A stretch of 64,000 bases of DNA from Erodium maritimum (taxonomy: Eukaryota > Streptophyta > Magnoliopsida > Geraniales > Geraniaceae): positions 23,493,515 through 23,557,514 of the forward strand of contig OY997591.1 of NCBI GenBank assembly GCA_963921825.1, written 5' to 3'. Shown here piece after piece: positions 21,561 to 55,114 of this stretch (position 1 is its first letter; each line of letters begins with the position of its first letter). The translations under genes and the position numbers were made by a program. The notes beneath the pieces are model-generated. The model was not told the origin of the DNA and ran no database searches. It worked only from the letters and a program-made list of their open reading frames with translations.

Positions 21561-21785
21561 GTTGGTGTCTTGGGTGGCCATGAGTGCCTGTGGAGTGCTG
21601 AACTTGTGTTGTTGCTGTTTGTTGAACTTTGTTTGTGATTGTGATTGTGGTTACCTGAGGTTGTGGGCCCGCTTCATGAAACGGGGGTCCTCGATCACAC
21701 GCGTCTGCATGTTCAGACGGGGTAGGGGGCCAGCCCGACAACAAAGGGGTCCTGGCCGCGCGTGTGTGGTTCGGGGTTGTGAGTG

Positions 21786-27303: not shown

Positions 27304-28979
27304 TGTTGGGTCTCGATGGAGGGTATGAACACATACTTGCAGCGGAAATAACTCGAGACCATGTCATAGAACACTACCAAATATTAGATACACAAGAGAA
27401 TAAACAATATGGATGTTTCCTTACCAACTAGTTCAAGAAAAGGAAGAGAACACCAAAGAAACGATGATCGGCTTGAGTCTCCAAGACGCCTACGTATCCA
27501 ATTGGAATCAAAGCCACGTAGTTCTTCTTTAGATGACTCAAGAACACAACAAGAGGGGGGAAAAGTGCCAAACTCGAAATTGTAGTGTGAGAGGGAGAGA
27601 AGTTGTGTTTCTATTCTTGTCTTGTGATTTGTTGTAGGAAAAAGATGACTTAAACCATCAACAACCATCAAGGACAAGTAAGGTGTGAAGAATGGTGTGA
27701 AGTAAGACAAGCATGGTGCTAAGTATGGCAAGACAAGATGGGTTAGGTGGTGAATCACCAACACCTTAATCCTTGTCTTGCTTACTTAGTACTAATTAAT
27801 CAAGACTTGATTAATTAGTTCCATGGGCCTTGGTTGCATGGGCCTTTCATGGGCCTCTTGGAACATGGCCCATGGCCATTCCCAACGAGGTCCCGTGACG
27901 TGCTCATCGCCTCCAAGCCTTCCATACCGGAAATGTCCAACGTTATCCAACGCGATCAATCCCAAGACTCCAAGCCTTGTCTTGATCCGTAATGTCCTAT
28001 TCACTTACGGGCACATGACCCAAAACCCAGTTTTGGTCATGTCCCGAGACAACTCTCTTTTGGCCATTCTCCATAAATGTGTCAATGAGTTTCATCCTTC
28101 GATGTGACCCTTAGGTCTATGCATGTCGATAGATCAACGTAAAATCCCATTTTACTTGATCCTATATAAGTGGCAACTAACGAGACTTTAGTATTGCCTG
28201 ACACTACATAGCGAATCGAACCAATCGATTCTAACCTTTCCGTCGTCCCTGTCATTATCCTTTTATCTCCGATATCCTGATTGAGATAAGGCATAGAGCC
28301 GTCATCCTTATTATTCTCAATCACTGTTCCTTGATATGTGAGATGACTGAATATATGATACCTAGTATCATGTGCATGGCCATGCTATTCTTTCAGTCAC
28401 TCTCGATCAAGCGGCCGAGAACCGATATCTTTCCCATACCTCAGTATGAGGGATAAATCCCTTAGCCGTCTTTCGTGTCACTCATGCAACCCGTCCCCAA
28501 GCCAATCCTGGCCGTTATGGAAGCCCTGTTACGGACAACGTTAGGCTCAGGTCAAACTTAGTTGTTGACTGCATAGTGATCACAAAGACTCCTTGGTCTA
28601 AGGATACATGACAAGCTACGACACTGAATATGTTAATGACTCAATCTATGGCACATATTCAGGGCGGGTCGTCCAATATCATGTCCCACATGATATCTAT
28701 GATCAGACTCCGGAATCCCATTCCAATGACTAACAGAACGTAAGCCATGAAGAGCCATCTTTCATACTAGTCGCTTCAAGTGAAGCTTTGTTGACTAGGG
28801 ACCCATCGAGTGTGATCCATCTCGATCTATGGTTCTATTCGCATGGTGGGCATAGATCAGAAATCACATCGATATATTACTCCAACACATAAGTAATAGA
28901 AAACCGCTTTAATCTTATTGCTAATGATGATATATACATTTGGACATTTATGATTGAACTACGGGCACTAAGACTAACA
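27304..28979 (-). mobile_element. Copia element 1, 3' LTR (1676 bp)
   Basis: On the minus strand it begins TGTTAGTCTTAG right after the polypurine tract GGGCAAGTGGGAGAT and ends GAGACCCAACA. The element runs 27304-53657, flanked by GAGAA at 27299-27303 and 53658-53662. Compared by eye with its split 5' LTR there are five substitutions and two small indels. The LTR contains a perfect 14-bp inverted repeat (ACTAATTAATCAAG). Confidence 0.95.
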
Positions 28980-28994
28980 ATCTCCCACTTGCCC
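28980..28994 (-). promoter_or_regulatory. Polypurine tract of copia element 1
   Basis: GGGCAAGTGGGAGAT on the minus strand directly precedes the 3' LTR and overlaps the stop codon region of gag-pol. It primes plus-strand DNA synthesis in LTR elements. Confidence 0.85.
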
Positions 28995-33019: not shown

Positions 33020-34554
33020 TTGATCTACACGACAAACAAAATATAATCAGTAAACTGAATAAATTTTATGAAGATCAAGTTCAAACACCAACCAATTGAT
33101 TCTAAACCTTTAGAACCTAAAACCAAGATCCTTGATTCACCCGATTAAGCTGAACTAATGCTCACCACTTAATCGAGCTATGTAGGTAGGACTCCATCCA
33201 ATCACATCCAATGTGACTCTTGGCTAGGGTATGTACTCATGTACACGGCTTACCCTATCTAATACCCTAGCTCAACCTCAGGCTGAGAATCGTAGTCGGG
33301 TCCACCAATTTTCAACTATGGCCCGTCACTATGTGGGTGCTCCGCTAATGCGCACGACACCTACACATGTCGTCCAAACCTACTACCCCGTTTTCCCATG
33401 GATGCTCCGCTAATGCGCACGACACCCATAGGACGGGGAGGTAGTAAGGTGTTGATAATTGGGAGGTATCGGACATGACCCGTTTTTACTTGTCCGGTTG
33501 TGTTTTAAACTTTTGGCACATCCTAGATGCGATGAGCACATCAACTACATTCCAAATGTAATGATGCCTCCAATTACATCCAATGTAATTCTTCCTTCGA
33601 ACCCGTCAACTACATCCAATGTAATGACGATTCTAAGGGCTCACAGACAATGATTAAAACCAATTTTATCTTTGCATGTGAGGTGATATGCTCGGTAAAT
33701 TAAGTTAAGCATGCAATTCTAAAACACATAGAAATGATCATGCAAAAACTAAACCAAGCATAAAGCGTTAAATATGTACATAATAGCCCACTAAACTAAC
33801 TCCCACTAGCTTCTTGAGCTCCACCGACTCCAAGCCGATGTCAAAACCCGAGAAGCCACCAAATGACCTTTTCGCCCTTTCTTCGTCTTGAGTAAAATAT
33901 TACAATTTAATACACGACTCGCAGGTCGGGAATTAATAAATATTACAAATAAGTGGTACGACGACCACACCTCGAAAAAATAATTACACGCTAACTCTAA
34001 CGGCTCGCAGGCCGTGAAAAGCGATAAATAATTAAATCAAACTCGGGGCTATTATGTACACCATGCCAACATCACATCACACATCGTGTTATCAAACAAG
34101 CATGTTATCAAACATCATGTGATTTTCCGGTTTTAATTAATTGCCAAGTTTCGAAAATTTTTGATACTCGGTTTATCGAAACCGTTCAAAATTGAAACTT
34201 TTGACTATTTGATTTTTGAGTTCATCAAGACGGTTCCAAACTCGTCATGACTAACAAAACGGTTTAGCTCGGCATATTGACCATCCAATGGTCATGCTTG
34301 GCCTAGCTCCGTCCAACGGAGCCCCGTTCGGTCCCGGTTTCGGCTCCCCGAGAGTCCCGCTCCCGAGACCCGAAAAATCAAATTTTTTTCAAAAATTCCA
34401 GATTTGATAAACTTTTCAAAAATTCATTTTTCATGCATTAAACCCATAAACAAGAATTTAAAACATGTTATCAAACAATTTAGCAAATTAACATGCAAAA
34501 CCGAAACTAGCAAGCAAAACCGAAAGTTCTCTTGTGAATCCCGAAGGTAGCACG
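33020..34554 (-). promoter_or_regulatory. Copia element 1 leader between PBS and gag
   Basis: A 1535-bp untranslated leader. It holds two copies of GCTCCGCTAATGCGCACGAC about 65 bp apart and several copies of ACATCCAATGTAAT near 33540-33630. The same features occur in elements 2 and 3. In BARE-type elements the leader is expected to carry RNA dimerisation and packaging signals; the assignment here is inference. Confidence 0.6.
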
Positions 34555-34566
34555 GCTCTGATACCA
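34555..34566 (-). promoter_or_regulatory. Primer-binding site of copia element 1
   Basis: TGGTATCAGAGC on the minus strand, complementary to the 3' end of initiator methionine tRNA, one base after the 5' LTR end. This is the standard minus-strand primer site of plant copia elements. Confidence 0.95.
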
Positions 34567-34567
34567 C

Positions 34568-35795
34568 TGTTGGGTCTCGATGGAGGGTATGAACAAATAC
34601 TTGCAGCGGAAATAACTCGAGACCATGTCATAGAACACTACCAAATATTAGATACACAAGAGAATAAACAATATGGATGTTTCCTTTACCAACTAGTTCA
34701 AGAAAAGGAAGAGAACACCAAAGAAACGATGATCGGCTTGAGTCTCCAAGACGCCTACGTATCCAATTGGAATCAAAGCCACGTAGTTCTTCTTTAGATG
34801 ACTCAAGAACACAACAAGAGGGGGGAAAAGTGCCAAACTCGAAATTGTAGTGTGAGAAGGAGAGAAGTTGTGTTTCTATTCTTGTCTTGTGATTTGTTGT
34901 AGGAAAAAGATGACTTAAACCATCAACAACCATCAAGGACAAGTAAGGTGTGAAGCATGGTGTGAAGTAAGACAAGCATGGTGCTAAGTATGGCAAGACA
35001 AGATGGGTTAGGTGGTGAATCACCAACACCTTAATCCTTGTCTTGCTTACTTAGTACTAATTAATCAAGACTTGATTAATTAGTTCCATGGGCCTTGGTT
35101 GCATGGGCCTTTCATGGGCCTCTTGGAACATGGCCCATGGCCATTCCCAACGAGGTCCCGTGACGTGCTCATCGCCTCCAAGCCTTCCATACCGGAAATG
35201 TCCAACGTTATCCAACGCGATCAATCCCAAGACTCCAAGCCTTGTCTTGATCCGTAATGTCCTATTCACTTACGGGCACATGACCCAAAACCCAGTTTTG
35301 GTCATGTCCCGAGACAACTCTCTTTTGGCCATTCTCCATAAATGTGTCAATGAGTTTCATCCTTCGATGTGACCCTTAGGTCTATGCATGTCGATAGATC
35401 AACGTAAAATCCCATTTTACTTGATCCTATATAAGTGGCAACTAACGAGACTTTAGTATTGCCTGACACTACATAGCGAATCGAACCAATCGATTCTAAC
35501 CTTTCCGTCGTCCCTGTCATTATCCTTTTATCTCCGATATCCTGATTGAGATAAGGCATAGAGCCGTCATCCTTATTATTCTCAATCACTGTTCCTTGAT
35601 ATGTGAGATGACTGAATATATGATACCTAGTATCATGTGCATGGCCATGCTATTCTTTCAGTCACTCTCGATCAAGCGGCCGAGAACCGATATCTTTCCC
35701 ATACCTCAGTATGAGGGATAAATCCCTTAGCCGTCTTTCGTGTCACTCATGCAACCCGTCCCCAAGCCAATCCTGGCCGTTATGGAAGCCCTGTT
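34568..35795 (-). mobile_element. Copia element 1, 5' LTR, inner part
   Basis: The 1228 bp of the 5' LTR next to the PBS, including CTATATAAG (35428-35436), the reverse complement of a TATA-like box. It ends at CTGTT (35791-35795), the left copy of element 2's target duplication. The outer 451 bp of the same LTR is at 53207-53657. Confidence 0.95.
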
Positions 35796-37471
35796 TGTTA
35801 GTCTTAGTGCCCGTAGTTCAATCATAAATGTCCAAATGTATATATCATCATTAGCAATAAGATTAAAGCGGCTTTCTATTACTTATGTGTTGGAGTAATA
35901 TATCGATGTGATTTCTGATCTATGCCCACCATGCGAATAGAACCATAGATCGAGATGGATCACACTCGATGGGTCCCTAGTCAATAAAGCTTCACTAGAA
36001 GCGACTAGTATGAAAGATGGCTCTTCATGGCTTACGTTCTGTTAGTCATTGGAATGGGATTCCGGAGTCTGATCATAGATATCATGTGGGACATGATATT
36101 GGACGACCCGCCCTGAATATGTGCCATAGATTGAGTCATTAACATATTCAGTGTCGTAGCTTGTCATGTATCCTTAGACCAAGGAGTCTTTGTGATCACT
36201 ATGCAGTCAACAACTAAGTTTGACCTGAGCCTAACGTTGTCCGTAACAGGGCTTCCATAACGGCCAGGATTGGCTTGGGGACGGGTTGCATGAGTGACAC
36301 GAAAGACGGCTAAGGGATTTATCCCTCATACTGAGGTATGGGAAAGATATCGGTTCTCGGCCGCTTGATCGAGAGTGACTGAAAGAATAGCATGGCCATG
36401 CACATGATACTAGGTATCATATATTCAGTCATCTCACATATCAAGGAACAGTGATTGAGAATAATAAGGATGACGGCTCTATGCCTTATCTCAATCAGGA
36501 TATCGGAGATAAAAGGATAATGACAGGGAGGACGGAAAGGTTAGAATCGATTGGTTCGATTCGCTATGTAGTGTCAGGCAATACTAAAGTCTCGTTAGTT
36601 GCCACTTATATAGGATCAAGTAAAATGGGATTTTACGTTGATCTATCGACATGCATAGACCTAAGGGTCACACCGAAGGATGAAACTCATTGACACATTT
36701 ATGGAGAATGGCCAAAAGAGAGTTGTCTCGGGACATGACCAAAACTGGGTTTTGGGTCATGTGCCCGTAAGTGAATAGGACATTACGGATCAAGACAAGG
36801 CTTGGAGTCTTGGGATTGATCGCGTCGGATAATGTTGGACATTTCCGGTATGGAAGGCTTGGAGGCGATGAGCACGTCACGGGACCTCGTTGGGAATGGC
36901 CATGGGCCATGTTCCAAGAGGCCCATGAAAGGCCCATGCAACCAAGGCCCATGGAACTAATTAATCAAGTCTTGATTAATTAGTACTAAGTAAGCAAGAC
37001 AAGGATTAAGGTGTTGGTGATTCACCACCTAACCCATCTTGTCTTGCCATACTTAGCACCATGCTTGTCTTACTTCACACCATGCTTCACACCTTACTTG
37101 TCCTTGATGGTTGTTGATGGTTTAAGTCATCTTTTTCCTACAACAAATCACAAGACAAGAATAGAAACACAACTTCTCTCCCTCTCACACTACAATTTCG
37201 AGTTTGGCACTTTTCCCCCCTCTTGTTGTGTTCTTGAGTCATCTAAAGAAGAACTACGTGGCTTTGATTCCATTTGGATACGTAGGCGTCTTGGAGACTC
37301 AAGCCGATCATCGTTTCTTTGGTGTTCTCTTCCTTTTCTTGAACTAGTTGGTAAGGAAACATCCATATTGTTTATTCTCTTGTGTATCTAATATTTGGTA
37401 GTGTTCTATGACATGGTCTCGAGTTATTTCCGCTGCAAGTATGTGTTCATACCCTCCATCGAGACCCAACA
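35796..37471 (+). mobile_element. Copia element 2, 5' LTR (1676 bp)
   Basis: TGTTAGTCTTAG to GAGACCCAACA. Element 2 occupies 35796-53201 with TSD CTGTT (35791-35795 and 53202-53206). Its two LTRs differ at one base that I can see (near 37209 against 52939). A TATA-like CTTATATAGG is at 36605-36614 and a perfect 29-base palindrome (arm ACTAATTAATCAAG) at 36956-36984. Confidence 0.95.
36956..36984. repeat. Perfect 14+1+14 palindrome in the copia LTR
   Basis: ACTAATTAATCAAG, one centre base, then its exact reverse complement. It is present in the LTRs of all three elements (for example near 27789 and 40211). It lies about 350 bp downstream of the TATA-like box, so it would be in the transcribed part. 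A role in RNA folding or termination is possible but unproven. Confidence 0.8.
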
Positions 37472-37472
37472 G

Positions 37473-37484
37473 TGGTATCAGAGC
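37473..37484 (+). promoter_or_regulatory. Primer-binding site of copia element 2
   Basis: TGGTATCAGAGC, initiator-tRNA complementary, one base after the 5' LTR end at 37471. Confidence 0.95.
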
Positions 37485-39019
37485 CGTGCTACCTTCGGGA
37501 TTCACAAGAGAACTTTCGGTTTTGCTTGCTAGTTTCGGTTTTGCATGTTAATTTGCTAAATTGTTTGATAACATGTTTTAAATTCTTGTTTATGGGTTTA
37601 ATGCATGAAAAATGAATTTTTGAAAAGTTTATCAAATCTGGAATTTTTGAAAAAAATTTGATTTTTCGGGTCTCGGGAGCGGGACTCTCGGGGAGCCGAA
37701 ACCGGGACCGAACGGGGCTCCGTTGGACGGAGCTAGGCCAAGCATGACCATTGGATGGTCAATATGCCGAGCTAAACCGTTTTGTTAGTCATGACGAGTT
37801 TGGAACCGTCTTGATGAACTCAAAAATCAAATGTTCAAAAGTTTCAATTTTGAACGGTTTCGATAAATCGAGTATCAAAAATTTTCGAAACTTGGCAATT
37901 AATTAAAACCGGAAAATCACATGATGTTTGATAACATGCTTGTTTGATAACACGATGTGTGATGTGATGTTGGCATGGTGTACATAATAGCCCCGAGTTT
38001 GATTTAATTATTTATCGCTTTTCACGGCCTGCGAGCCGTTAGAGTTAGCGTGTAATTATTTTTTCGAGGTGTGGTCGTCGTACCACTTATTTGTAATATT
38101 TATTAATTCCCGACCTGCGAGTCGTGTATTAAATTGTAATATTTTACTCAAGACGAAGAAAGGGCGAAAAGGTCATTTGGTGGCTTCTCGGGTTTTGACA
38201 TCGGCTTGGAGTCGGTGGAGCTCAAGAAGCTAGTGGGAGTTAGTTTAGTGGGCTATTATGTACATATTTAACGCTTTATGCTTGGTTTAGTTTTTGCATG
38301 ATCTTTTCTATGTGTTTTAGAATTGCATGCTTAACTTAATTTACCGAGCATATCACCTCACATGCAAAGATAAAATTGGTTTTAATCATTGTCTGTGAGC
38401 CCTTAGAATCGTCATTACATTGGATGTAGTTGACGGGTTCGAAGGAAGAATTACATTGGATGTAATTGGAGGCATCATTACATTTGGAATGTAGTTGATG
38501 TGCTCATCGCATCTAGGATGTGCCAAAAGTTTAAAACACAACCGGACAAGTAAAAACGGGTCATGTCCGATACCTCCCAATTATCAACACCTTACTACCT
38601 CCCCGTCCTATGGGTGTCGTGCGCATTAGCGGAGCATCCATGGGAAAGCGGGGTAGTAGGTTTGGACGACATGTGTAGGTGTCGTGCGCATTAGCGGAGC
38701 ACCCACATAGTGACGGGCCATAGTTGAAAATTGGTGGACCCGACTACGATTCTCAGCCTGAGGTTGAGCTAGGGTATTAGATAGGGTAAGCCGTGTACAT
38801 GAGTACATACCCTAGCCAAGATTCACATTGGATGTGATTGGATGGAGTCCTACCTACATAGCTCGATTAAGTAGTGAGCATTAGTTCAGCTTAATCGGGT
38901 GAATCAAGGATCTTGGTTTTAGGTTCTAAAGGTTTAGAATCAATTGGTTGGTGTTTGAACTTGATCTTCATAAAATTTATTCAGTTTACTGATTATATTT
39001 TGTTTGTCGTGTAGATCAA
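37485..39019 (+). promoter_or_regulatory. Copia element 2 leader between PBS and gag
   Basis: A 1535-bp leader, the same length as in element 1. It contains repeated ATTACATTGGATGTA-type motifs (38410-38500) and two GTCGTGCGCATTAGCGGAGC copies (near 38617 and 38681). No open frame of note. Confidence 0.6.
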
Positions 39020-39714
39020 ATGGCAAGTACTTCAGCGAACAATAGTAGTTTGTCACTAAAAACCATTCTTGATAGGATCAAGCTAAGTGGGACAAACTAC
39101 TTGGACTGGGACAGAAACTTGAGGATAGTCCTCAAATTCGAGCGCAAAGAATATGTCCTAGACCAGGCTATCCCTGAGGAGCCAGCTAATAATGCCATTA
39201 GGGCCGTTAAGGATGCATACCAAAAGCACCTTAGCGATTCTATAGATGTGGCATGTATTATGCTGGGCTGCATGGAGTCTGATCTCCAAGACCAGTTCAT
39301 GGAGTACTCTGATGACCCCTATACTATGATGGGGATCATAAAGGGTATGTTCAAGGAAAGGGCACGTATCGTGAGATACAATGTCCTTAATGAACTTCTC
39401 TCCTGCAAAATGTCAGCAGGAGTCTCCGTGGGTCCTCATGTCCTAAAGATGAAGGGGCATCTCGAACATCTTAATCGACTGGGTCTTAAGATAGAGAACG
39501 AGATGGCAGCGGATGTGGTTCTGCGTTCCCTTCCTCGTTCATATGCTACGTTCGTCATGAACTATCATATGCACGATATGGACAAGACCATTTCAGAGTT
39601 GCATGGAATGTTGGTAACTGCTGAAAAGAACGTCAAGGATCAGGGATCCAAGGATGTTCTGATGGTCAGACAGGGAAACAGTTTCAAGAATAAGGGAACT
39701 GTTAGTGGTAAGGG
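39020..39714 (+). CDS. Copia element 2 Gag-Pol, N-terminal part (interrupted)
   Basis: The first 231 codons of Gag, almost identical to element 1, ending at AAGGG (39710-39714) where element 3 is inserted. The frame continues at 48181 with phase preserved: 695 nt before the break plus 10 nt after it give 235 codons before the Met at 48191. The extra codons after 39714 in the open frame belong to element 3's LTR. Confidence 0.9.
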
Positions 39715-41402
39715 TGTTGGGTCTCGAGGTAGGGTTGGAGATGAACCAACTCGCAGCGGAAAATCAATGAAAACCAAGAGACGATTAAAACCATGAAACA
39801 ACTAACAAAGAATGGATTCACAAGAGAAAAATTCAGCACTAGTTCTTACCAAAACAAGAACACCGGTTAACGAATGATTGGCTTGAGTCTCCAAGACGCC
39901 TACGTATCCACATGGGAATCAAAGCCACGTAGTTCTTCTCTTTGAGGACTCAAGAACACAAACATGGAGGTGGAAACTAGCCAAACCCGAAATGGCCATG
40001 GAAGAGGGAGAGAAAATGTGTTTCCTATTCTTGTCTTGTGTTTGTTATGTTGAAAAAAGATGACTTAAACATAACAAAACCCATACTTGTCCAACTAAAG
40101 GCATGGGACAAGTATGGTGTCAAGTAAGGTGTAAATAGGACAAAGTATGGCAAGACAAGATTGGGTTAGGTGGTGAATCACCAACACCTTAATCCTTGTC
40201 TTGCTTACTTAGTACTAATTAATCAAGACTTGATTAATTAGTTCCATGGGCCTTGGTTGCATGGGCCTTTCATGGGCCTCTTGGAACATGGCCCGTGACC
40301 ATTTCCAACGAGGTCCCGTGATTCGCTCATCGCCTCCATGCCTTCCATACCGGAAATGTCCAACATTATCCGACGCGATCAATCCCAAGACTCCAAGCCT
40401 TGTCTCGATCCGTAAAGTCCTATTCACTTACGGGCACATGACCCAAAACCCAGTTTTGGTCATGTCCCGAGACAACTCCCTTTTGGCCATTCTCCATAAA
40501 TGTGTCAATGAGTTTCATCCTCCGGTGTGACCCTTAGGTTTATGCATGTCAATAGATCAACGTAAAATCCTATTTTACTTGATCCTATTTAAGTGGCAAC
40601 TAACGAGACTTTAGTATTGCCTGACACTACATAACGAATCGACCCTGTCGATTCTAACCTTTCCGTCGTCCCTGTCATTATCCTTTTATCTCCGATATCC
40701 TGATTGAGATAAGGCATAGAGCCGTCATCCTTATTATTCTCAATCACCGTTCCTTGATATGTGAGATGACTGAAGATATGATACCCAGTATCATGTGCAT
40801 GGCCATGCTATTCTTCCAGTCACTCTCGATCAAGTGGCCGAGAACCGATATCTTTCCCATACCTTAGTATGAGGGATAAATCCCTTAGCCGTCTTTCGTG
40901 TCACTCATGTAGCCCGTCCCCAAGCCAATCCTGGCCGTTATGGAAGCCCTGTTACGGACAACGTTAGGCTCAGGTCAAACTCAGTTGTTGACTACATAGC
41001 GATCACAAAGACTCCTTGGTCTAAGGATACATGACAAGCTACAACACTGAATATGTTCATGACTTAATCTATGGCACATATTCAGGGCGGGTCGTCCAAT
41101 ATCATGTCCCACATGATATCTATGATCAGACTCCGGAATCTCATTCCAATGACTAACAGAACGTAAGCCATAAAGAGCCATCTTTCATACTAGTCGCTTC
41201 TAGTGAAGCTTTGTTGACTAGGGACCCATCGAGTGTGATCTATCTCGATCTATGGTTCTATTCGCATGGTGGGCATAGATCAGAGCACACATCGATATAT
41301 TACTCCAACACATAAGTAATATAAAGCCGCTTTAATTTTATTGCTAACGATGATATATACATTTGGACATTTAGGATTGAACTACGGGCACTAAGACTAA
41401 CA
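39715..41402 (-). mobile_element. Copia element 3, 3' LTR (1688 bp)
   Basis: On the minus strand it starts TGTTAGTCTTAG after GGGCAAGTGGGAGAT and ends GAGACCCAACA. It belongs to a subfamily distinct from elements 1 and 2: the sequence next to the 3' end reads TCGAGGTAGGGTTGG rather than TCGATGGAGGG. Element 3 covers 39715-48175 with TSD AAGGG (39710-39714 and 48176-48180). Only one difference from its 5' LTR was seen (CATGTAGCC against CATCTAGCC). Confidence 0.95.
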
Positions 41403-41417
41403 ATCTCCCACTTGCCC
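41403..41417 (-). promoter_or_regulatory. Polypurine tract of copia element 3
   Basis: GGGCAAGTGGGAGAT on the minus strand, identical to those of elements 1 and 2, next to the 3' LTR. It is intact although the coding region beside it is not. Confidence 0.85.
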
Positions 41418-42990
41418 TAGTTCCAATCTAAACTCCAATATGTCCCCATCGACTTTACATGTCTAACATGTTCAGGCAGTGACACTGCCTCAGTCAACGG
41501 GTTGGCTATGTTATCATCTGTTGCAATATCGGTTATCTTCACTTCACCTCAGTTCAGTATTTATCTGATGAGGTGGATACGCCGCAGTACATGTTTGGAT
41601 TTGTTATGCGATCTAGGCTTTTAGCTTGCGCAATGGCCCTTGTGTTGTCGCAAAATGGATTCACCGGACTGGATGGGTTTTTAATTACACCCAGCCCTGC
41701 CATGAATTTCCAAATCCACATAGCCTCCTTAAGCTGCCTCTGCAGCATCCATGTACTTGGCCTCTGTCGTAGATTCGGCAATGGTATCTTGCTTTACGCT
41801 TTCCCAGCTAAAGCTCTGCCATTCAGCGTAAACACATATCCTGATTGACTTCTAAAGTCATCTGGATTTGTCTTGGAAAACTAGCGTCTACTCATCCTTC
41901 GACGACTAGTTCAGCATCATCTTTCCCCCGGGTTAGAATGATGTCTACTGGTACAACATAAGGCTTACGAGACGTCTGGTCTCATACATGTCATGGCATA
42001 TATGATCGATCCTGCCCCCAGGCGCATAGGATTCTCATCATCCTTTTCAGCTCATCAGGTGTCTTAGGACACTGAGTCTTGCTGAGATGAATGCCATGAC
42101 TAGTGGGTAAGAGTCCTTTCTTTGAATCGAGCATTAAGAACCTACTCAATGCCTTGTTCACATAGGTTCCCTGACTTAAATCCAAGACCCTCTTGGTGCG
42201 ATCTCTACATATCTTAATCCTTAAGATATGAGAAGCATCACCTAAGTCCTTTATTGAAAAACACTTCCTCAACCAAGCTTTAGTCTCGTGCAAGGTTGGG
42301 ATGTCGTTTTCAATGAGAACCAGAAAGGTAATATTGCTCCCACTAGCCTTCTTATAAACGCAAGATTCATCCTCGTTCTTGATTAAGCCAAATCCAATTA
42401 CAGCTTCATCAAAACGAAGGATCCAACTCCGAGAAGTTCGTTTCAATCCATAAATGGATTTCAACAACTTATAAATCTTTCCTTTATTCTTCGGATCGTC
42501 AAAACCTTTGGGCCGAGACATACAAACGTACTCAGTCAAATTTCCATTTAGGAAAGCGGTTTTGACATCCACTTGCCATATCTCGTAATTATGATACGCA
42601 GTTATGTCAAGAAGAATTTGGATCGATTTTGACCATAGCCACTAAGGAGAAGGTTTCCTCATAGTCAATCCATTGGATCTGCCTATAACCTTTCGCCACC
42701 AGTTGAGCTTTGTAGGTCAGAGGGTTGCCGTCCATGTCCATCTTCACCTTGAAGATCCATTTGCATCCTATGGTCCTCACACCATTGATGGGATCAACCG
42801 GTTCCCAGACTCGGTTGTCCGACATGGATTGCATTTCCTCCCTCATGGCTCCCAGCCATAACTCGGAGTTGGGCCCATCCACGACTTCCTGAAAGGTGGC
42901 TGGATCATCGTGATCCACCATGACTTCATTGTCACCTCCGGATACCATATCTTGGAGGTGGAAGATTGATCCTTTCAAATCGCCTTGGAC
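41418..42990 (-). pseudogene. Copia element 3 RT and RNase H relic, YVDD deleted
   Basis: The minus-strand pieces 42607-42978 and 41991-42572 match RT, and 41554-41781 matches RNase H, of elements 1 and 2. In the RT catalytic block element 3 reads FLVLIENDIPTL where the relatives have FLVLYVDDILLIGND: an in-frame 21-bp deletion near 42320 removes the catalytic YVDD. A deletion of about 85 bp near 41930 and several frameshifts separate RT from RNase H. No functional RT can come from this element. Confidence 0.9.
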
Positions 42991-43066
42991 CTTCCGGAAT
43001 TGTAACAGGAATTGGTTCTTACTCTACGACAATCTCTGGCTTCTTTCTACTGGGTTGCCAATTGGT

Positions 43067-44310
43067 TTAGACAGATCTGTACCATCCTGAATTTCTTCGA
43101 GATGCACAGTCCTCCCAATGACGTCTTTGGAAACAAAACTCCTTTTCCATAAAGACCCCACCCCATGCGATGAACACCATGTTCTCACTGGGATTGTAGA
43201 AGTGGTATCCCCTAGTTGCTTTGGGATACCACACGAAGGTGCATATCTCAGATCTTGGTTCGAGCTTAGTCGAAACCAAACGTTTCACATAAGCCTCGCA
43301 ACCACAAATCTTTAGGAAGGACAAAGCGGGCATCATCCCATTCCATTTTTAAAATGGTGTCCCTTCCACACCCTTCGTCGAAGCCCGATTCACTATGAAT
43401 GCGGTCGTCTCTAGAGCATAATCCCAGAAAGAGATTGGGAGATCAGTCCAACTAATAATGGAACGGACCATTGTCTAACAATGTCCGATTTCTCCGTTTG
43501 GCTACACCTTTCATCTACAGTGTCCCAAGAGGAGTCTATTCCAAAAGGATCCCATTCTCTTTTAGATGATCTAATAACTCTGTGGTCAAGTATTTTCCAC
43601 CTCGATCCAATCGAAGTGCCTTAATACCTTTGTCCAACTGGTTTTCTACTTTAATCTTAAACTCTTTGAATTTATCAAAAGCTTCAGACTTATGTCTCAG
43701 CGAATAGACATAACCATATTTACTGTAATCATCAGTAAATGTGATAAAGTAGCTAAAACCCCTCCTGGCAAGCGAAGTTATTGGTCTACACACATTCGAG
43801 TGTATCAGCCCCAATAATTCACCCGCCCTTTCATCGCGATCGATAAAAGGGCACTTTAGTCATTTTGGCCATCAAACAAACCTCGCACCTATCGATCGAA
43901 TGGAATTCGAATGAACCTGAAAGCCCGCACTTCTGAAGTGCTGATAGGCGCTTCTTATTTATGCGACCCAAATGACAGTGCCATAACAGAGTTAGGTTTA
44001 AATCGTTGGATTTAGACCTCTTGGTATTAACGGAATATATAGAACTTGAGGCATTGTTACCCATATCTAATATGTACAATCCTCCAACCATGTCAGTACT
44101 GGTATAAAACATATCATTGCATAGAACATTGAAAACTCCATTTCCAATATTAACATTATATCCTTCCTTGTTAAACACGGATACAGATATAATATTCCTA
44201 CTAAAAGTAGGTATGCAATATACATTATACAATACTAAGACAAGGCCTCTTGGCAAAGCAAGACTCATGGATCCTACAGCAGTTGCCACAACTCTGAGGT
44301 CCACTTCGTG
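43067..44310 (-). pseudogene. Copia element 3 integrase relic
   Basis: Four broken frames on the minus strand (43067-43336, 43345-43530, 43536-43814, 43831-44304) match integrase of elements 1 and 2. The HHCC region (HCHLGRINKKRL, CEVCLMAK) and core blocks HSNVCRP and LRLDRGGKY are recognisable. The core acids are altered: HSD became HSN and RGGEY became RGGKY. Frameshifts separate the pieces. Confidence 0.85.
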
Positions 44311-44933
44311 CTTTCCAGACCTCTCCTACTTTCAGCCACCATATATAAGTGCATGTGTGAGATTCAGTCCTGGTATCTAATACCCATGAATCTTTGGAAG
44401 TAGAGAGATGTAGCTCTATAGAGTTAATACCGGATGAAGGCACGGTCCCACCGCCCTTCCTTAGATCATCCAGGTTTCCTGATGAAGGCGCAGTCCTACT
44501 GCCCTTCTTCAGATCATCCACGCTATTTGATGAAGGCGCAGTCCCACTGCCCTTCTTCAGATCAGCCGTGAACTTCCTGTAATCCCGGTTCCAATGACCA
44601 GGCTGTTGGCAGTAGAAGCAGACATTCTCATGTGTCTCATCTTTCCTGCCAAGTGCGCATGGGCCCCGCCCTTGCCACTTCCAATTCCCTTGTTGACCAT
44701 CAGAATATCCTTGGATCCCAGATCCCTGATATATTCTTCTCAGCAATTAATGACACTTCATGTAACTCTGATATGGTCTTAGAGACAGCCTTGTCATGGA
44801 CATATTCTTTGCGTTCAGACCTGAGGACTATCCTCAAAATTCTGTACCAGTCCAAATAGTTTGTCCCATTTAGCTTGACCCTGTCAAGAATGGTTTTTAA
44901 TGACAAACTATTAATGTTCGCTGAACTTGCCAT
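44311..44933 (-). pseudogene. Copia element 3 gag and protease relic, with internal repeat
   Basis: Starts with a gag N-terminus like its relatives (NGTNYLDWYR) but jumps from YVHDKAV to SKTISELHEV, losing about 150 residues of Gag. The zinc knuckle is CFYCQQPGHWNRDY, with the last Cys changed to Tyr. After it a 16-residue block (DDLKKGSGTAPSS type) is present three times, against once in relatives. The protease motif DTGA is replaced by DTRT. Frames 44225-44746 and 44700-44933 overlap out of phase. Confidence 0.85.
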
Positions 44934-44935
44934 TT

Positions 44936-46474
44936 GATCTACAACAGATAAAATTCAATCAGTAAACTGAATAAATTTTATGAAGATCAAGCTTAGACAC
45001 CAACAATCGATTCTAAACCTTTAGAATCTGAAACCAAGATCCTTGATTCACTCGATTAAGCTGAACTAATGCTCACCACTTAATAGAGCTATGTAGGTAG
45101 GACTCCATCCAATCACATCCAATGTGACTCTTGGCTAGGGTATGTACATATGTACACGACTTACCCTATCTGTTACCCTAGCTCAACCTCAGGCTGAGAA
45201 TCGTAGTCGGGTCCACCAATTTTCAACTATGGCCCGTCACTATGTAGGTGCTCCGCTAATGCGCACGACACCCACATATGTCGTCCAAACCTACTACCCC
45301 GCTTCCCCATGGATGCTCCGCTAATGCGCACGACACCCATAGGACGGGGAGGTAGTAAGGTGTTGATGATTGGGAGGTATCGGACATGACCCGCTTTTAC
45401 TTGTCCAGTTGTGTTCAAAACTTTGGCACATCCTAGATGCGATGAGCACATCAACTACATTCCAAATGCAATGATGCCTCAAATTACATCCAATGTAATT
45501 CTTCCTTTGAACCCGTCAACTACATCCAATGCAATGACGGTTCTAAGGGTTCACACACAAGGATTAAAATTCCAATTTTATCTTTGCATGTGAGGTGATA
45601 TGCTCGGTAAATAAAGTTAAGCATGCAATTCTAAAACACAGAATTAATCATGCATAAACTAAACCAAGCATAAAGCGATAAATATGCACATAATAGCCCC
45701 CTAAACTAACTCCCACTAGCTTCTTGAGCTCCACCGACTCCAAGCCGATGCCAACACCCGAAAAGCCACCAAATGACCTTTTCGCCCTTTCTTCATCTTG
45801 AGTAAAATATTACAATTTAATACACGACTCGCAGGTCGGGAATAAATAAATATTACAAACAAGTGGTTCGACGACCACACCTTGAAAGAATAATTACACG
45901 TTAACTCTAACGGCTCGCAGGCCGTGAAAAGCGATAAATAATTAAATTGAGCTCGGGGCTATTATGTACACCATGCCAACATCACATCACACATCGTGTT
46001 ATCAAACAAGCATGTTATCAAACATCATGTGATTTTCCGGTTTTAATTAATAGCCAAGTTTCGAAATTTTTTGATGCTCGGTTTATCGAAACCGTTCAAA
46101 AATGAAACTTTTGAACATTTGATCTTCGAGTTCGTCATGACGGTTCCAAACTCGTCATAACTAACAAAACGGTTTAGCCTTAGCATATCAACCATCCAAT
46201 GGTCATGCTTGGCCTAGCTCCGTCCAACGGAGCCCCGTTCGGTCTCGGTTTCGGCTCCCCGAGAGTCCCGCTCCCGAGACCCGAAAAATCAAACTTTTTT
46301 CAAAATTTCCAGATTTGAAATAATTTTCAAAAATTCATTTTACATGCATTAAATCCATAAACAATAATTTAAAACATGTTATCAAACAATTTAGCAAAAC
46401 AACATGCCAAAAACGAAACTTTCAAGCAAAACCGAAACTTTGAACACCGTCTTGTGAATCCCGAAGGTAGCACG
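44936..46474 (-). promoter_or_regulatory. Copia element 3 leader, full length
   Basis: 1539 bp against 1535 bp in elements 1 and 2, with the same repeated motifs: GCTCCGCTAATGCGCACGAC twice (near 45250 and 45315) and ACATCCAATG copies near 45487-45530. The non-coding leader has kept its length while the coding region lost about 0.5 kb. Confidence 0.65.
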
Positions 46475-46486
46475 GCTCTGATACCA
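46475..46486 (-). promoter_or_regulatory. Primer-binding site of copia element 3
   Basis: TGGTATCAGAGC on the minus strand, unchanged from elements 1 and 2, one base from the 5' LTR. Confidence 0.95.
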
Positions 46487-46487
46487 C

Positions 46488-48175
46488 TGTTGGGTCTCGA
46501 GGTAGGGTTGGAGATGAACCAACTCGCAGCGGAAAATCAATGAAAACCAAGAGACGATTAAAACCATGAAACAACTAACAAAGAATGGATTCACAAGAGA
46601 AAAATTCAGCACTAGTTCTTACCAAAACAAGAACACCGGTTAACGAATGATTGGCTTGAGTCTCCAAGACGCCTACGTATCCACATGGGAATCAAAGCCA
46701 CGTAGTTCTTCTCTTTGAGGACTCAAGAACACAAACATGGAGGTGGAAACTAGCCAAACCCGAAATGGCCATGGAAGAGGGAGAGAAAATGTGTTTCCTA
46801 TTCTTGTCTTGTGTTTGTTATGTTGAAAAAAGATGACTTAAACATAACAAAACCCATACTTGTCCAACTAAAGGCATGGGACAAGTATGGTGTCAAGTAA
46901 GGTGTAAATAGGACAAAGTATGGCAAGACAAGATTGGGTTAGGTGGTGAATCACCAACACCTTAATCCTTGTCTTGCTTACTTAGTACTAATTAATCAAG
47001 ACTTGATTAATTAGTTCCATGGGCCTTGGTTGCATGGGCCTTTCATGGGCCTCTTGGAACATGGCCCGTGACCATTTCCAACGAGGTCCCGTGATTCGCT
47101 CATCGCCTCCATGCCTTCCATACCGGAAATGTCCAACATTATCCGACGCGATCAATCCCAAGACTCCAAGCCTTGTCTCGATCCGTAAAGTCCTATTCAC
47201 TTACGGGCACATGACCCAAAACCCAGTTTTGGTCATGTCCCGAGACAACTCCCTTTTGGCCATTCTCCATAAATGTGTCAATGAGTTTCATCCTCCGGTG
47301 TGACCCTTAGGTTTATGCATGTCAATAGATCAACGTAAAATCCTATTTTACTTGATCCTATTTAAGTGGCAACTAACGAGACTTTAGTATTGCCTGACAC
47401 TACATAACGAATCGACCCTGTCGATTCTAACCTTTCCGTCGTCCCTGTCATTATCCTTTTATCTCCGATATCCTGATTGAGATAAGGCATAGAGCCGTCA
47501 TCCTTATTATTCTCAATCACCGTTCCTTGATATGTGAGATGACTGAAGATATGATACCCAGTATCATGTGCATGGCCATGCTATTCTTCCAGTCACTCTC
47601 GATCAAGTGGCCGAGAACCGATATCTTTCCCATACCTTAGTATGAGGGATAAATCCCTTAGCCGTCTTTCGTGTCACTCATCTAGCCCGTCCCCAAGCCA
47701 ATCCTGGCCGTTATGGAAGCCCTGTTACGGACAACGTTAGGCTCAGGTCAAACTCAGTTGTTGACTACATAGCGATCACAAAGACTCCTTGGTCTAAGGA
47801 TACATGACAAGCTACAACACTGAATATGTTCATGACTTAATCTATGGCACATATTCAGGGCGGGTCGTCCAATATCATGTCCCACATGATATCTATGATC
47901 AGACTCCGGAATCTCATTCCAATGACTAACAGAACGTAAGCCATAAAGAGCCATCTTTCATACTAGTCGCTTCTAGTGAAGCTTTGTTGACTAGGGACCC
48001 ATCGAGTGTGATCTATCTCGATCTATGGTTCTATTCGCATGGTGGGCATAGATCAGAGCACACATCGATATATTACTCCAACACATAAGTAATATAAAGC
48101 CGCTTTAATTTTATTGCTAACGATGATATATACATTTGGACATTTAGGATTGAACTACGGGCACTAAGACTAACA
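46488..48175 (-). mobile_element. Copia element 3, 5' LTR (1688 bp)
   Basis: Same length as its 3' LTR and almost identical. It is followed by AAGGG (48176-48180), the second copy of the target duplication, after which element 2 gag resumes. Confidence 0.95.
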
Positions 48176-48180
48176 AAGGG

Positions 48181-51100
48181 CAAGGCCCCTATGCACTTGG
48201 CAGGAAAGATGAGGCATCCGAAGCGTCCTAACCCTCCTAGGACCGGGGAGTCCTCAAGGAAGGGGAAGGATGTCGAGAATGTCTGCTTCTACTGTCAACA
48301 GCCTGGTCACTGGAAGAAAGATTGCAGGAAGTTTCTGGATGATCTGAAGAAGGGCGGTGGGACTGTGCCTTCATCAGGTATTTTCTTTATAGAGCTAAAT
48401 CTCACTACTTCCAAAGATTCATGGGTATTGGATACCGGGGCTGAATCTCACATTTGTACTAATGTGCAGTGGCTGGAAGGTAGGAGAAGCTTGAAGAAGG
48501 ACGAGGTGGACCTCAGAGTGGGCAACAAGACTAGAGTTGTGGCGACTGCTGTAGGATCCATAAGTCTTCTTTTGCCAAGTGGGCTAGTTTTTGTTTTGAA
48601 CAATGTATATTGTGTACCTACTTTCAGTAGGAATATTGTATCTATTTCTTTGTTGGACAAGGAAGGATACAATTTTGATGTTGGAAATGGGATTTTCAAT
48701 ATTTTATGCAATGATATATTTTATGCTAGCGCCAAAATGGTTGGAGGATTGTACATATTGGATATGGATAACAATGCCTCAAGCTCTATATATAATGTAA
48801 ATACCAAGAGGTCTAAGTCCAATGATTTAGACCAAACTCTTTTATGGCATTGTCGTTTAGGCCACATAAACGAGAAACGCATATCAACACTTCACAAGTG
48901 TGGACTTCTTAGTCCATTCGAATTTCATTCGATTGATAGATGCGAATCTTGTTTGATGGGAAAACTGACTAAAGCGCCCTTCATCGGTCGCGGTGAAAGG
49001 GCGGGTGACTTATTGGGGCTAATACACTCGGATGTGTGTGGACCAATGAGCACACTTGCCAGGAGGGGTTTTAGCTACTTTATCACATTTACTGACGACT
49101 TCAGTAGATATGGTTATGTCTATTTGATGAGACATAAGTCTGAAGCTTTTGATAAATTCAAAGAGTTTAAGACGGAAGTAGAAAACCAGCTCGGGAAAAG
49201 TATTAAAGCACTTCGATCAGATCGAGGTGGAGAATACTTGACCACAGAGTTTTTAGATCATCTAGCAGAAAGTGGGATCCTTTCGGAATGGACTCCTCCC
49301 GGAACACCACAATTGAATGGTGTGTCCGAACGGAGAAATCGGACTTTATTGGATATGGTCCGGTCCATGATTAGTGGGACTGATCTCCCAATCTCTTTCT
49401 GGGGTTATGCTCTGGAGACGGCCGCATTCATTTTGAATCGGGCTCCGACGAAGGCTGTGGAAGGGACACCATTTGAGAAATGGCGCGGGAGAAAGCCCGT
49501 TTTGTCCTTCCTAAAGATTTGGGGTTGCGAGGCTTATGTGAAACGTTTAGTTCCGACTAAGCTCGAACCAAGATCTGATAAATGCACCTTCGTTGGGTAT
49601 CCCAAAGAAACAATGGGGTACTACTTCTACAAACCCAGCAAGAACACGGTGTTCGTCGCTCGGGGTGGGGTCTTTATGGAAAGGGAGTTTATTTCCAAAG
49701 ACGTCAGTGGGAGGGTTGTACATCTAGAAGAAATTCAGGGTGGTACAGATCCAACTGATCCACTGGACAACCCTGTAGAAGAGCCTGAGATGGTCGTAGA
49801 GCAAGGACCAGTTCCTGCAACAATTCCAGAAGGTCCAAGGCGATCTGAAAGGGTTAGTCGTCCACCTCCGAGATATGGTTACTTTGTGTCTGGAGGTGAC
49901 GGTGAGCTTGTGGTGGATCACGATGATCCAGCTACATTTCAGGAAGCTGTGGACGGACCCGACTCTGAGTTATGGCTGGGAGCCATGAGGGAGGAAATGC
50001 AATCCATGTCGGACAACCAAGTTTGGGAACTGGTTGATCCCATCGGTGGTGTAAGAACCATCGGATGCAAATGGATCTTCAAGGTGAAGATGGACATGGA
50101 AGGCAACCCTCAGACCTACAAAGCCCGACTAGTGGCGAAAGGTTATAGGCAGATCCAAGGGATTGACTATGAGGAAACCTTTTCCCCAGTGGCTATGGTC
50201 AAATCTATCCGAATTCTTCTTGCCATAGCTGCATATCACGATTACGAGATATGGCAAATGGATGTCAAAACCGCTTTCCTAAACGGAAATTTGTCGGAGG
50301 ACGTTTATATGTCTCAACCCGAAGGTTTTGTCGATCCGAAGAATAAGGGAAAGATTTGTAAGTTGTTGAAATCCATTTATGGATTGAAACAAGCTTCTCG
50401 GAGTTGGAACCTTCGTTTTGATGAAGCTGTAATTGGATTTGGCTTTATCAAGAATGAAGATGAACCTTGCGTTTACAAGAAGGCAAATGGGGGTATGATT
50501 ACCTTTCTGGTGTTGTATGTCGATGACATACTACTCATTGGAAACGACATCCCAACCTTGCACGAGACTAAAGCTTGGTTAGGGAAGTGTTTCTCAATGA
50601 AGGACTTAGGCGATGCTGCTTATATCTTAGGGATTAAGATATATAGAGATCGCACCAAGAGGGTCTTGGGTTTAAGTCAAAGCACCTATGTGAACAAGGT
50701 ATTGAGTAGGTTCTCAATGCTTGATTCCAAGAAAGGACTCTTACCCGCACGTCATGGCGTTCATCTCAGCAAGACTCAGTGTCCTAAGACACCTGATGAG
50801 CTGAAAAGAATGATGCGAATCCCATACGCTTCGGCGGTAGGATCGATCATGTATTCCATGATATGCACGAGACCGGATGTCTCATATGCCTTGAGTTGTA
50901 CCAGCAGACATCAGTCTAACCCTGGTGAGGAACACTGGATAGCGGTCAAAGCGATTCTCAAATATTTGAGAAGAACTAAGGACGCGTTTCTAGTGTACGG
51001 GGGAAAAGATGATTCTGAACTAGTTGTTAATGGATATGTAGACGCTAGTTTCCAGACAGATCCAGATGACTTTAGAAGTCAGTCAGGATATGTGTTCACG

Positions 51101-51511
51101 CTGAATGGCGGAGCTTTCAGCTGGAAGAGCGTGAAGCAAGACACCGTCGCTGACTCCACGACAGAGGCCGAGTACATAGCGGCTGCAGAGGCGGCCAAGG
51201 AGGCTGTGTGGATTAGGAAGTTCACGGCAGGGTTGGGTGTAATCAAAAACCCATCCAGCCCGGTGAACCTATTTTGCGACAACACAGGGGCTATTGCGCA
51301 AGCTAAAGAGCCCAGATCGCATAACAAATCCAAACATGTACTGCGGCGATATCACCTCATCAGAGAGATACTGAACCGAGGCGATGTGAAGATCACCTAT
51401 ATTGCAACTGATGATAACATAGCCGACCCGTTGACTAAGGCACTATCGTTGCCTAAACATGAGAGGCATGTAAGGTCAATGGGAATAGATTGGAGTTTAG
51501 ATTGGAGCTAG
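48181..51511 (+). CDS. Copia element 2 Gag-Pol, remainder (interrupted gene)
   Basis: Continues the frame begun at 39020. It contains the normal zinc knuckle CFYCQQPGHWKKDC, protease DTGA, integrase with HSDVCGP, SDRGGEY and NGVSERRN, RT with YVDD, and RNase H with NGYVDASF, TTEAEYIA and CDNTGA. Stop TAG is at 51509-51511. Together the two parts give 1341 codons, as in element 1, with no stop or shift other than the insertion itself. An internal Met at 48191 would give a 1106-residue product lacking most of Gag. Confidence 0.93.
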
Positions 51512-51525
51512 GGCAAGTGGGAGAT
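51511..51525 (+). promoter_or_regulatory. Polypurine tract of copia element 2
   Basis: GGGCAAGTGGGAGAT directly before the 3' LTR, overlapping the last base of the stop codon. Confidence 0.85.
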
Positions 51526-53201
51526 TGTTAGTCTTAGTGCCCGTAGTTCAATCATAAATGTCCAAATGTATATATCATCATTAGCAATAAGATTAAAGCG
51601 GCTTTCTATTACTTATGTGTTGGAGTAATATATCGATGTGATTTCTGATCTATGCCCACCATGCGAATAGAACCATAGATCGAGATGGATCACACTCGAT
51701 GGGTCCCTAGTCAATAAAGCTTCACTAGAAGCGACTAGTATGAAAGATGGCTCTTCATGGCTTACGTTCTGTTAGTCATTGGAATGGGATTCCGGAGTCT
51801 GATCATAGATATCATGTGGGACATGATATTGGACGACCCGCCCTGAATATGTGCCATAGATTGAGTCATTAACATATTCAGTGTCGTAGCTTGTCATGTA
51901 TCCTTAGACCAAGGAGTCTTTGTGATCACTATGCAGTCAACAACTAAGTTTGACCTGAGCCTAACGTTGTCCGTAACAGGGCTTCCATAACGGCCAGGAT
52001 TGGCTTGGGGACGGGTTGCATGAGTGACACGAAAGACGGCTAAGGGATTTATCCCTCATACTGAGGTATGGGAAAGATATCGGTTCTCGGCCGCTTGATC
52101 GAGAGTGACTGAAAGAATAGCATGGCCATGCACATGATACTAGGTATCATATATTCAGTCATCTCACATATCAAGGAACAGTGATTGAGAATAATAAGGA
52201 TGACGGCTCTATGCCTTATCTCAATCAGGATATCGGAGATAAAAGGATAATGACAGGGAGGACGGAAAGGTTAGAATCGATTGGTTCGATTCGCTATGTA
52301 GTGTCAGGCAATACTAAAGTCTCGTTAGTTGCCACTTATATAGGATCAAGTAAAATGGGATTTTACGTTGATCTATCGACATGCATAGACCTAAGGGTCA
52401 CACCGAAGGATGAAACTCATTGACACATTTATGGAGAATGGCCAAAAGAGAGTTGTCTCGGGACATGACCAAAACTGGGTTTTGGGTCATGTGCCCGTAA
52501 GTGAATAGGACATTACGGATCAAGACAAGGCTTGGAGTCTTGGGATTGATCGCGTCGGATAATGTTGGACATTTCCGGTATGGAAGGCTTGGAGGCGATG
52601 AGCACGTCACGGGACCTCGTTGGGAATGGCCATGGGCCATGTTCCAAGAGGCCCATGAAAGGCCCATGCAACCAAGGCCCATGGAACTAATTAATCAAGT
52701 CTTGATTAATTAGTACTAAGTAAGCAAGACAAGGATTAAGGTGTTGGTGATTCACCACCTAACCCATCTTGTCTTGCCATACTTAGCACCATGCTTGTCT
52801 TACTTCACACCATGCTTCACACCTTACTTGTCCTTGATGGTTGTTGATGGTTTAAGTCATCTTTTTCCTACAACAAATCACAAGACAAGAATAGAAACAC
52901 AACTTCTCTCCCTCTCACACTACAATTTCGAGTTTGGCACTTTCCCCCCCTCTTGTTGTGTTCTTGAGTCATCTAAAGAAGAACTACGTGGCTTTGATTC
53001 CATTTGGATACGTAGGCGTCTTGGAGACTCAAGCCGATCATCGTTTCTTTGGTGTTCTCTTCCTTTTCTTGAACTAGTTGGTAAGGAAACATCCATATTG
53101 TTTATTCTCTTGTGTATCTAATATTTGGTAGTGTTCTATGACATGGTCTCGAGTTATTTCCGCTGCAAGTATGTGTTCATACCCTCCATCGAGACCCAAC
53201 A
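51526..53201 (+). mobile_element. Copia element 2, 3' LTR (1676 bp)
   Basis: TGTTAGTCTTAG to GAGACCCAACA, followed by CTGTT (53202-53206), the right copy of the target duplication in element 1's LTR. Confidence 0.95.
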
Positions 53202-55035: not shown

Positions 55036-55114
55036 CTACCGGGATCCACAATCACAATCACAAGCAAGGTTCAACAAACAGTAACAAGACCAGTTCAACA
55101 CTCCACAGGCACTC

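Follow-up and report, generated by a model that had tools for sequence, protein, structure and literature searches.

We describe here element 3, a retrotransposon found in a 64,000-bp stretch of the Erodium maritimum genome (the window), where it lies inside a copia element of autonomous type (element 2), itself inserted in one long terminal repeat (LTR) of another (element 1). Element 3 very probably belongs to a numerous non-autonomous copia lineage whose members are packaged, reverse-transcribed and integrated by the Gag-Pol proteins of element-1/2-type relatives. Its copies have ancestral lesions in common, were inserted independently, bear no sign of coding constraint and show linkage that decays with distance; one chimera with element-1 sequence was read, and element 1 combines an intact open reading frame (ORF) with the same cis-acting signals. 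An earlier note, made from the letters of the window, had proposed a lineage moved in trans and had suggested that the genome be searched for further copies in which these lesions recur next to different target site duplications (TSDs).

Common lesions and independent insertion sites of element 3 copies

Twenty-nine copies were examined: the window copy, 20 copies fetched by similarity and eight taken from the listing of exact matches to the deletion junction at the reverse transcriptase (RT) motif YVDD. The eight stood at every twelfth place of the coordinate-ordered listing, all on C1; one, which lay in a tandem array, was swapped for a near neighbour. Complete internal regions were present in 23 copies (the window copy, 15 similarity-fetched copies, array members L010 and L014 having been dropped, and seven C1 copies from the listing), and all 23 carry the same deletions of 408, 21, 18, 8, 21 and 77 bp. 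Perfect 5-bp TSDs, each different from the others, were found at all 20 scorable copies; not scored were the four members of one tandem array (L010, L011, L013 and L014) and L016, L018, L023, L028 and L074, which are without two complete LTRs or unscored. Thus, independent insertions carry common disabling lesions. An intact relative in the same genome has the primer binding site (PBS), polypurine tract (PPT) and LTR start in common with them, the U5 side not being in common. The first set comprised 18 copies. Out of 31 indels that distinguish the window copy from element 1, 27 were found in all 18, another in 17 and two in two copies; the last, a 1-bp insertion at element-1 position 3043, was not listed for any second copy of this set.

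The LTR pairs of the 20 scorable copies differ at 0-1 sites in 13 copies, the window copy included, and at 3-5 sites in three; the other four pairs have 9, 16, 17 (of 1288) and 27 (of 1541) differences. Since 16 of the 20 pairs thus have 0-5 differing sites and the copies have their own TSDs, the defective copies were inserted recently. At a plant substitution rate of 1.3e-8 per site per year, LTR ages range from ~0 to ~0.7 million years. The copy-to-copy difference of internal regions (median 1.15%, up to 3.7%) exceeds most LTR-pair differences, which indicates that the lineage diverged while replicating. When element 1 and the 23 complete copies were compared, the PPT and LTR start were conserved in all 24 sequences, the first 16 internal bases in 22 and the last 12 LTR bases in 20.

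Abundance of the lineage in the genome

Pattern counts over both strands of the 763-Mb genome returned 4626 matches to the YVDD-deletion junction (2313 + 2313), 4490 to the gag-deletion junction (2272 + 2218) and 4734 to the element-3 U5-PBS junction (2368 + 2366), against 668 (316 + 352) for the intact-YVDD marker of element-1 type and 493 (244 + 249) for the element-1 U5-PBS marker. Reversed-pattern controls gave 0 matches each, so the counts are beyond chance. By these markers, the lineage outnumbers its intact-type relatives approximately seven- to tenfold, a rough ratio since marker tolerances differed (2 or 3 mismatches in 30-42 bases), with old copies of either type undercounted; if every marked copy were full length, it would account for ~5% of the genome (39 Mb). 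A 1-kb query from the 3′ end of element 3 gave 40 scored places at 99-100%, of 1017 candidates. The lesions found in 23 of 23 copies, the distinct TSDs at 20 of 20 and the ~4,500-4,600 deletion junctions all support the earlier proposal of a lineage moved in trans.

The U5 end of element 3 was matched 13,123 times, its reversed control giving no match, compared with the 4,734 U5-PBS junctions, which, with tolerances again differing, suggests several thousand solo or truncated LTRs. Element-3 units sharing LTRs form a tandem array at C1:42497207-42531530 (L010, L011, L013, L014), mostly with ~6768-bp spacing; the outermost flanks of L010 and L014 are both TTAAG, as if the whole array lay within one TSD. 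Further same-orientation pairs and triples of markers, ~6.75-6.78 kb apart and likewise LTR-sharing arrays, occur at C1:14735614-14749168, C1:18705638-18712420 and other places. The gag-junction sites C1:97179060, 97187700 and 97196340 have a different period, of 8640 bp. PMC1950507 discusses elements that have an LTR in common.

Coding lesions and domain content

Aligned with the coding region of element 1, that of element 3 has 519 differences in 3465 bases and 17 frame-shifting indels, and only short open pieces are left; the earlier note was right to see no usable coding region and a loss of Gag. The gag deletion takes 408 bp (136 codons), and smaller losses are of 21 and 18 bp in gag/protease (PR), 21 bp over YVDD and 77 bp towards RNase H (RH). 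The 21-bp deletion, said to remove exactly the YVDD block, is present, "exactly" being slightly loose: seven residues are removed, FLVLYVDDILLIGND becoming FLVLIEND. Read by eye, the first integrase (INT) Asp is changed to Asn and that frame stops ahead of the Glu, in agreement with the altered integrase acids reported before. The replacement of protease DTGA by DTRT holds for the window copy and not as the state of the lineage, in which DTRT is the minority form (5 of 23 complete copies) and DTMT is found in 18.

The internal region of element 3 is 5085 bp long, compared with 5588 bp in element 1. The leader had been given as 1539 and 1535 bp, respectively; measured from the LTR end to the homologous ATG, it is 1554 bp in element 3 and 1548 bp in element 1. 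Since the leader is not shorter, the net internal loss is coding, as had been claimed for the ~0.5 kb shortfall. PBS and PPT are intact, as stated earlier, and, together with the first 12 LTR bases, identical to those of element 1.

In element 1 the domains are arranged as Retrotran_gag_2, zf-CCHC; Pol_BBD, gag_pre-integrs, rve, SH3_retrovirus; RVT_2, with the integrase upstream of the reverse transcriptase in one gag-pol, the order of copia (Ty1) elements. The remnants of element 3 follow this order, those of zf-CCHC, Pol_BBD and rve being below the Pfam curated cut-off, and its LTR pair with TG..CA ends, PBS, PPT and 5-bp TSD are likewise those of a copia element. Large retrotransposon derivatives (LARDs) and terminal-repeat retrotransposons in miniature (TRIMs) have internal regions without coding homology or are of miniature size; element 3 is 8.46 kb long, with gag_pre-integrs and RVT_2 remnants above the Pfam cut-off, and belongs to neither class. 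A search with the 408-bp gag segment of element 1 yielded 1071 candidates; 40 full-length places were scored, and the segment was identical at every one of them. About three copies of a 48-bp unit (84% matches) lie at window positions 44428-44564, in the gag/PR remnant of element 3; compared with element 1, this repeat contains a 15-base insertion and is adjoined by one of 25 bases.

Polymorphic sites of the 23 copies show no codon-position bias (129/109/127 for the three positions, p = 0.37). Fixed differences from element 1 do (131/103/193, p = 3e-7), as would be expected from constraint that acted on element 1 and its like, or that preceded the loss.

Patchy divergence from element 1

Element 3 differs from element 1 by 5.7% in the leader, 15.3% in the coding region and 9.2% in the LTR (~11% over the aligned element). 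LTR positions 1-1170 are ~4% diverged (2.9-6.3% in alignment windows), LTR windows from 1171 on 13-29% and coding windows 10-28%; fixed differences in the LTR begin abruptly, with a sharp break near position 1260. Diversity within the lineage, determined for the window copy and seven arbitrary copies, is 0.6-3.5% in all alignment windows. The counts of fixed and polymorphic sites in these eight copies are 35/67 (LTR 1-1170), 89/24 (LTR 1171-1688), 58/106 (leader), 161/52 (gag-PR), 141/102 (INT), 73/57 (RT) and 71/53 (RH).

When the comparison is confined to copies with young LTRs, U3 and U5 still contrast robustly (p ~1e-11 with 14 copies, 2e-10 with 5), and the contrast between the leader and gag-INT is weaker in the small set (p = 9e-7 with 14 copies, p = 0.02 with 5). 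Leader diversity is 0.76 of gag-INT diversity in the 14 young copies (0.0106 vs 0.0139) and 0.50 in the window copy and four arbitrary ones (0.0096 vs 0.0193), whereas the leader has diverged from element 1 about a third as far as gag-INT has (0.057 vs 0.177); constraint on the leader as the sole cause of its low divergence is weakened by this comparison. We read the patchy divergence as a probable sign that sequence was exchanged with the lineage of element 1; the leader may be under some constraint as well. Among the first 16 independent copies, non-coding diversity was not lower than coding diversity (0.0114 vs 0.0095; 4718 of 5000 permutations at or above the observed value), a comparison that was set aside because the copies had been fetched by similarity to the RT-RH end.

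Linkage decay and an element 3/element 1 chimera

Linkage was analyzed at non-CpG informative sites of 20 copies, the three oldest being omitted. The r2 value drops from 0.34 at distances below 100 bp to ~0.09 beyond 1 kb, and none of 2000 permutations was as extreme.

Twenty intact-YVDD places were picked from the listing of matches as lacking an exact element-1 U5 partner. Four of these places have an element-1 U5, one has a correctly placed element-3 LTR and 15 were unassignable at that spot, some with parts of other copies. The one, at C1:76723869-76732433, was read in short pieces, its LTRs partly. As can be seen from these, its PBS and leader (99%), gag through the 408-bp deletion (98%) and integrase (96%) are those of element 3; the RT, with YVDD, matches element 1 at 77 of 78 diagnostic columns (the deletion itself accounts for 21 of them), as does the 3′ end (46/46 bases). 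The two LTRs are identical over their first 255 bp and have the same U3 mosaic: up to position 118, seven diagnostic sites agree with element 1, and sites 162, 202 and 231 agree with element 3. Site 77 is an exception, being element-3-like, and at site 55 the element-1 base occurs in one of the 23 copies of element 3 as well. The 3′ LTR is element-3-like at 755-1055 and at its end (U5), and the TSD is CCTTC. A mosaic found in both LTRs must have gone through a round of reverse transcription. The simplest origin of the chimera would be template switching between RNAs packaged together; a genomic copy altered by gene conversion and then retrotransposed could also give it. Two further candidates, L047 and L048, were dropped, since orientation or spacing did not fit.

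Probable replication in trans and alternative explanations

A lasting non-autonomous lineage replicated in trans by element-1-type proteins is the most likely explanation of these data. Element 3 RNA would be transcribed from its own LTR promoter, and the kept PBS, leader, PPT and LTR ends would let it be packaged, reverse-transcribed and integrated by element-1/2-type Gag-Pol. The lineage had acquired and fixed its main coding lesions by the time the sampled copies spread; each new copy is therefore born defective. In the particle, element 3 RNA would recombine by template switching with the RNAs of sister copies and, on occasion at least, with that of element 1. Since the cis requirements appear to be present and the trans requirements broken, replication by element-1-type Gag-Pol is the natural reading.

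Several points weigh against this account. Transcription, packaging and the use of element-1-type proteins in trans are deduced from genome copies. The 20 similarity-fetched copies were picked by the RT-RH end of the window copy, which biases diversity there downwards, and the eight C1 copies from the exact-match listing offset this only partly. With distance, the four-gamete fraction climbs from 0.11 to 0.30 (1-2 kb) and then falls back to 0.22 (over 2 kb). A single chimera was characterized, from short pieces, among 20 places, and both it and the linkage decay could in part reflect gene conversion between genomic copies, followed by transposition. Finally, the U5 side is strongly different from that of element 1 (89 fixed vs 24 polymorphic sites), which makes a helper from another autonomous subfamily conceivable as well.

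This last point is the basis of the best surviving alternative, which we consider improbable: the helper is another autonomous copia subfamily with the element-3 U5, and element 1 is merely a cousin. The 13-29% divergence of the LTR from ~1260 on and the abrupt start of fixed differences speak in its favour. However, 76 exact element-3 U5 sites from the first part of C1 were looked at, and for 47 of them the exact YVDD-deletion junction stands at the correct distance. Twenty of the other 29 were read at the RT place; 11 were unreadable there (interrupted or truncated), and all nine readable sites have the deletion, as the full 21-base gap in seven and a slightly shifted gap in two. The RT identity of these nine to the window copy is 88-99%, which indicates that older copies carry the YVDD deletion too. 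No element-3 U5 joined to an element-3 body retaining YVDD was found among the U5 sites looked at, which cover the first part of C1 and are no full catalogue. The only element with element-3 U5 and YVDD that was read is the chimera, whose RT comes from element 1 and which ties the two lineages together. Intact copies of the subfamily, which the earlier note had named as grounds for giving up its proposal, thus did not turn up among the sites looked at.

It is very improbable that the copies multiplied at the DNA level, by segmental or tandem duplication, rather than by retrotransposition. The LTR-sharing array at C1:42.50-42.53 Mb and the unit-spaced pairs elsewhere show that some copies arise in this way, yet duplication including flanks would repeat one TSD, and each of the 20 scorable copies has its own. 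Hardly conceivable is that element 3 was intact at insertion and decayed in place, its LTR identity being due to gene conversion or assembly collapse, a general possibility to which one private 1-bp insertion (element-1 position 3043) might be attributed: six large deletions in 23 of 23 copies refute in-place decay as the source of the main lesions, there are thousands of junction matches, and collapse, the other objection foreseen in the earlier note, cannot yield 20 separate flanks and TSDs.

Comparison with known systems

Loss of RT together with Gag had been considered unusual; this does not hold, since RLC_Angela of wheat includes elements with a wholly degenerate coding region (PMC9744471). 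Like these, element 3 is near full size, has a degenerate coding region and, at ~11% divergence, is above the 85% identity to the autonomous type that is applied to RLC_Angela; its coding part alone is just under 85% identical to element 1. The likeness rests on size, state of the coding region and identity, not on phylogenetic placement: for RLC_Angela, wheat populations were compared by principal component analysis and trees, whereas for element 3 lesions, linkage decay and a chimera were read at single loci. BARE2 of barley, a copia element parasitic on its autonomous sister BARE1, makes no Gag, is packaged in BARE1 particles, predominates over BARE1 and has kept its packaging signals (PMC3735527). 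Element 3 is probably alike in these respects. BARE2 has lost its gag start codon through a deletion, and its remaining sequence could be translatable (PMC3735527), whereas the PR, INT, RT and RNase H regions of element 3 are broken too, with 17 frame-shifting indels and deletions in RT and towards RNase H that leave no translatable pol.

Dasheng/RIRE2 of rice and SNRE of soybean, both cited in PMC3701649, are comparable non-autonomous LTR elements, amplified with an autonomous partner; LTR swapping stands in the title of the soybean paper. Members of the Onsen family of Arabidopsis recombine pairwise in transposition bursts, it is thought when co-packaged (PMC5668417). That exchange is between young and old members of one family and was seen directly in new insertions; for element 3 it is between a defective and an autonomous type and is deduced from genome copies. 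A parallel is offered by non-autonomous pararetroviruses, whose noncoding sequences are homogenised to those of their partners (PMC5491270). No published autonomous/non-autonomous chimera of this sort was recognised in a partial literature search (titles and abstract openings), and absence from print is not claimed.

Architecture of the window

The coordinates of element 3, its parts and its relatives are given in Table 1. The two LTRs of element 3 have TG..CA ends and, as previously noted, a single mismatch (position 40909; 1/1688) and the TSD AAGGG. Since element 3 lies within element 2 and element 2 within element 1 (TSDs CTGTT and GAGAA, respectively), element 3 must have arrived after the other two. 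The reading frame of the element 1 gag-pol recurs in element 2, split into pieces of 258 and 1106 amino acids (aa).

Table 1. Element 3, its parts and the related elements in the window
Feature	Position	Strand	Remarks
Element 3	39715..48175	-	complete non-autonomous copia LTR retrotransposon in gag of element 2; LTR pair, TSD, PBS, PPT, thousands of marker matches
Left TSD of element 3	39710..39714	n/a	AAGGG
Right TSD of element 3	48176..48180	n/a	AAGGG
5′ LTR	46488..48175	-	1688 bp; last ~430 bp in sense (U5 side) strongly diverged from element 1, remainder ~4%
3′ LTR	39715..41402	-	1688 bp; one mismatch vs 5′ LTR
PBS region	46470..46487	-	GTGGTATCAGAGCCGTGC; same as element 1
Untranslated leader	44934..46487	-	1554 bp up to homologous gag ATG; 86/1542 aligned bases differ from element 1
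gag/PR remnant	44225..44933	-	408-bp deletion (junction near 44780), other indels; zinc knuckle just below Pfam cut-off; DTGA to DTRT
Pre-integrase remnant (above Pfam cut-off) and integrase core remnant (below)	43536..44325	-	frame-shifted; first catalytic Asp altered
RT remnants (RVT_2), two frames	41991..43023	-	21-bp deletion over YVDD near 42319
RNase H-side remnant	41419..41990	-	77-bp deletion (junction near 41929) and small indels
PPT	41403..41417	-	GGGCAAGTGGGAGAT; identical in element 1 and 23/23 copies
Element 1, left part	27304..35795	-	rest at 53207-53657; autonomous-type relative; TSD GAGAA; right LTR split by element 2
Element 1 gag-pol	28994..33019	-	one uninterrupted ORF, 1341 aa: gag, zinc knuckle, gag_pre-integrs, rve, SH3_retrovirus, RVT_2
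Element 2	35796..53201	+	second autonomous-type copy; TSD CTGTT; ORF pieces of 258 + 1106 aa flank element 3

Tandem repeats also occur outside the three elements. An array of a 57-bp unit (~10 copies, higher period of 171 bp) lies at 20838-21593, units related to it by eye lie in opposite orientation at 55095-55866, and a 423-bp tandem duplication (99% matches) is found at 55114-55963.

Biological meaning

We suggest tentatively, as something short of our expectation, that the parasite keeps pace with its helper by repeatedly acquiring helper U3 and leader through template switching in shared particles. U3 and leader are ~3-6.5% from element 1, U5 and coding parts ~10-29%, and within-lineage diversity is far more even; one chimera shows such exchange with element-1 sequence. 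If the suggestion is true, the element 3 lineage is a mosaic, its cis-acting parts periodically renewed from the helper and its dead coding region drifting.

The freeloading strategy is already known from wheat and barley, and the element 3 lineage is a further case. Without a usable coding region, element 3 is a clear natural parasite of a genomic parasite. Many of its copies are young, a relative with an intact ORF lies in the same window and a chimera could be read, so that the compatibility of such a parasite with its helper over time becomes testable.

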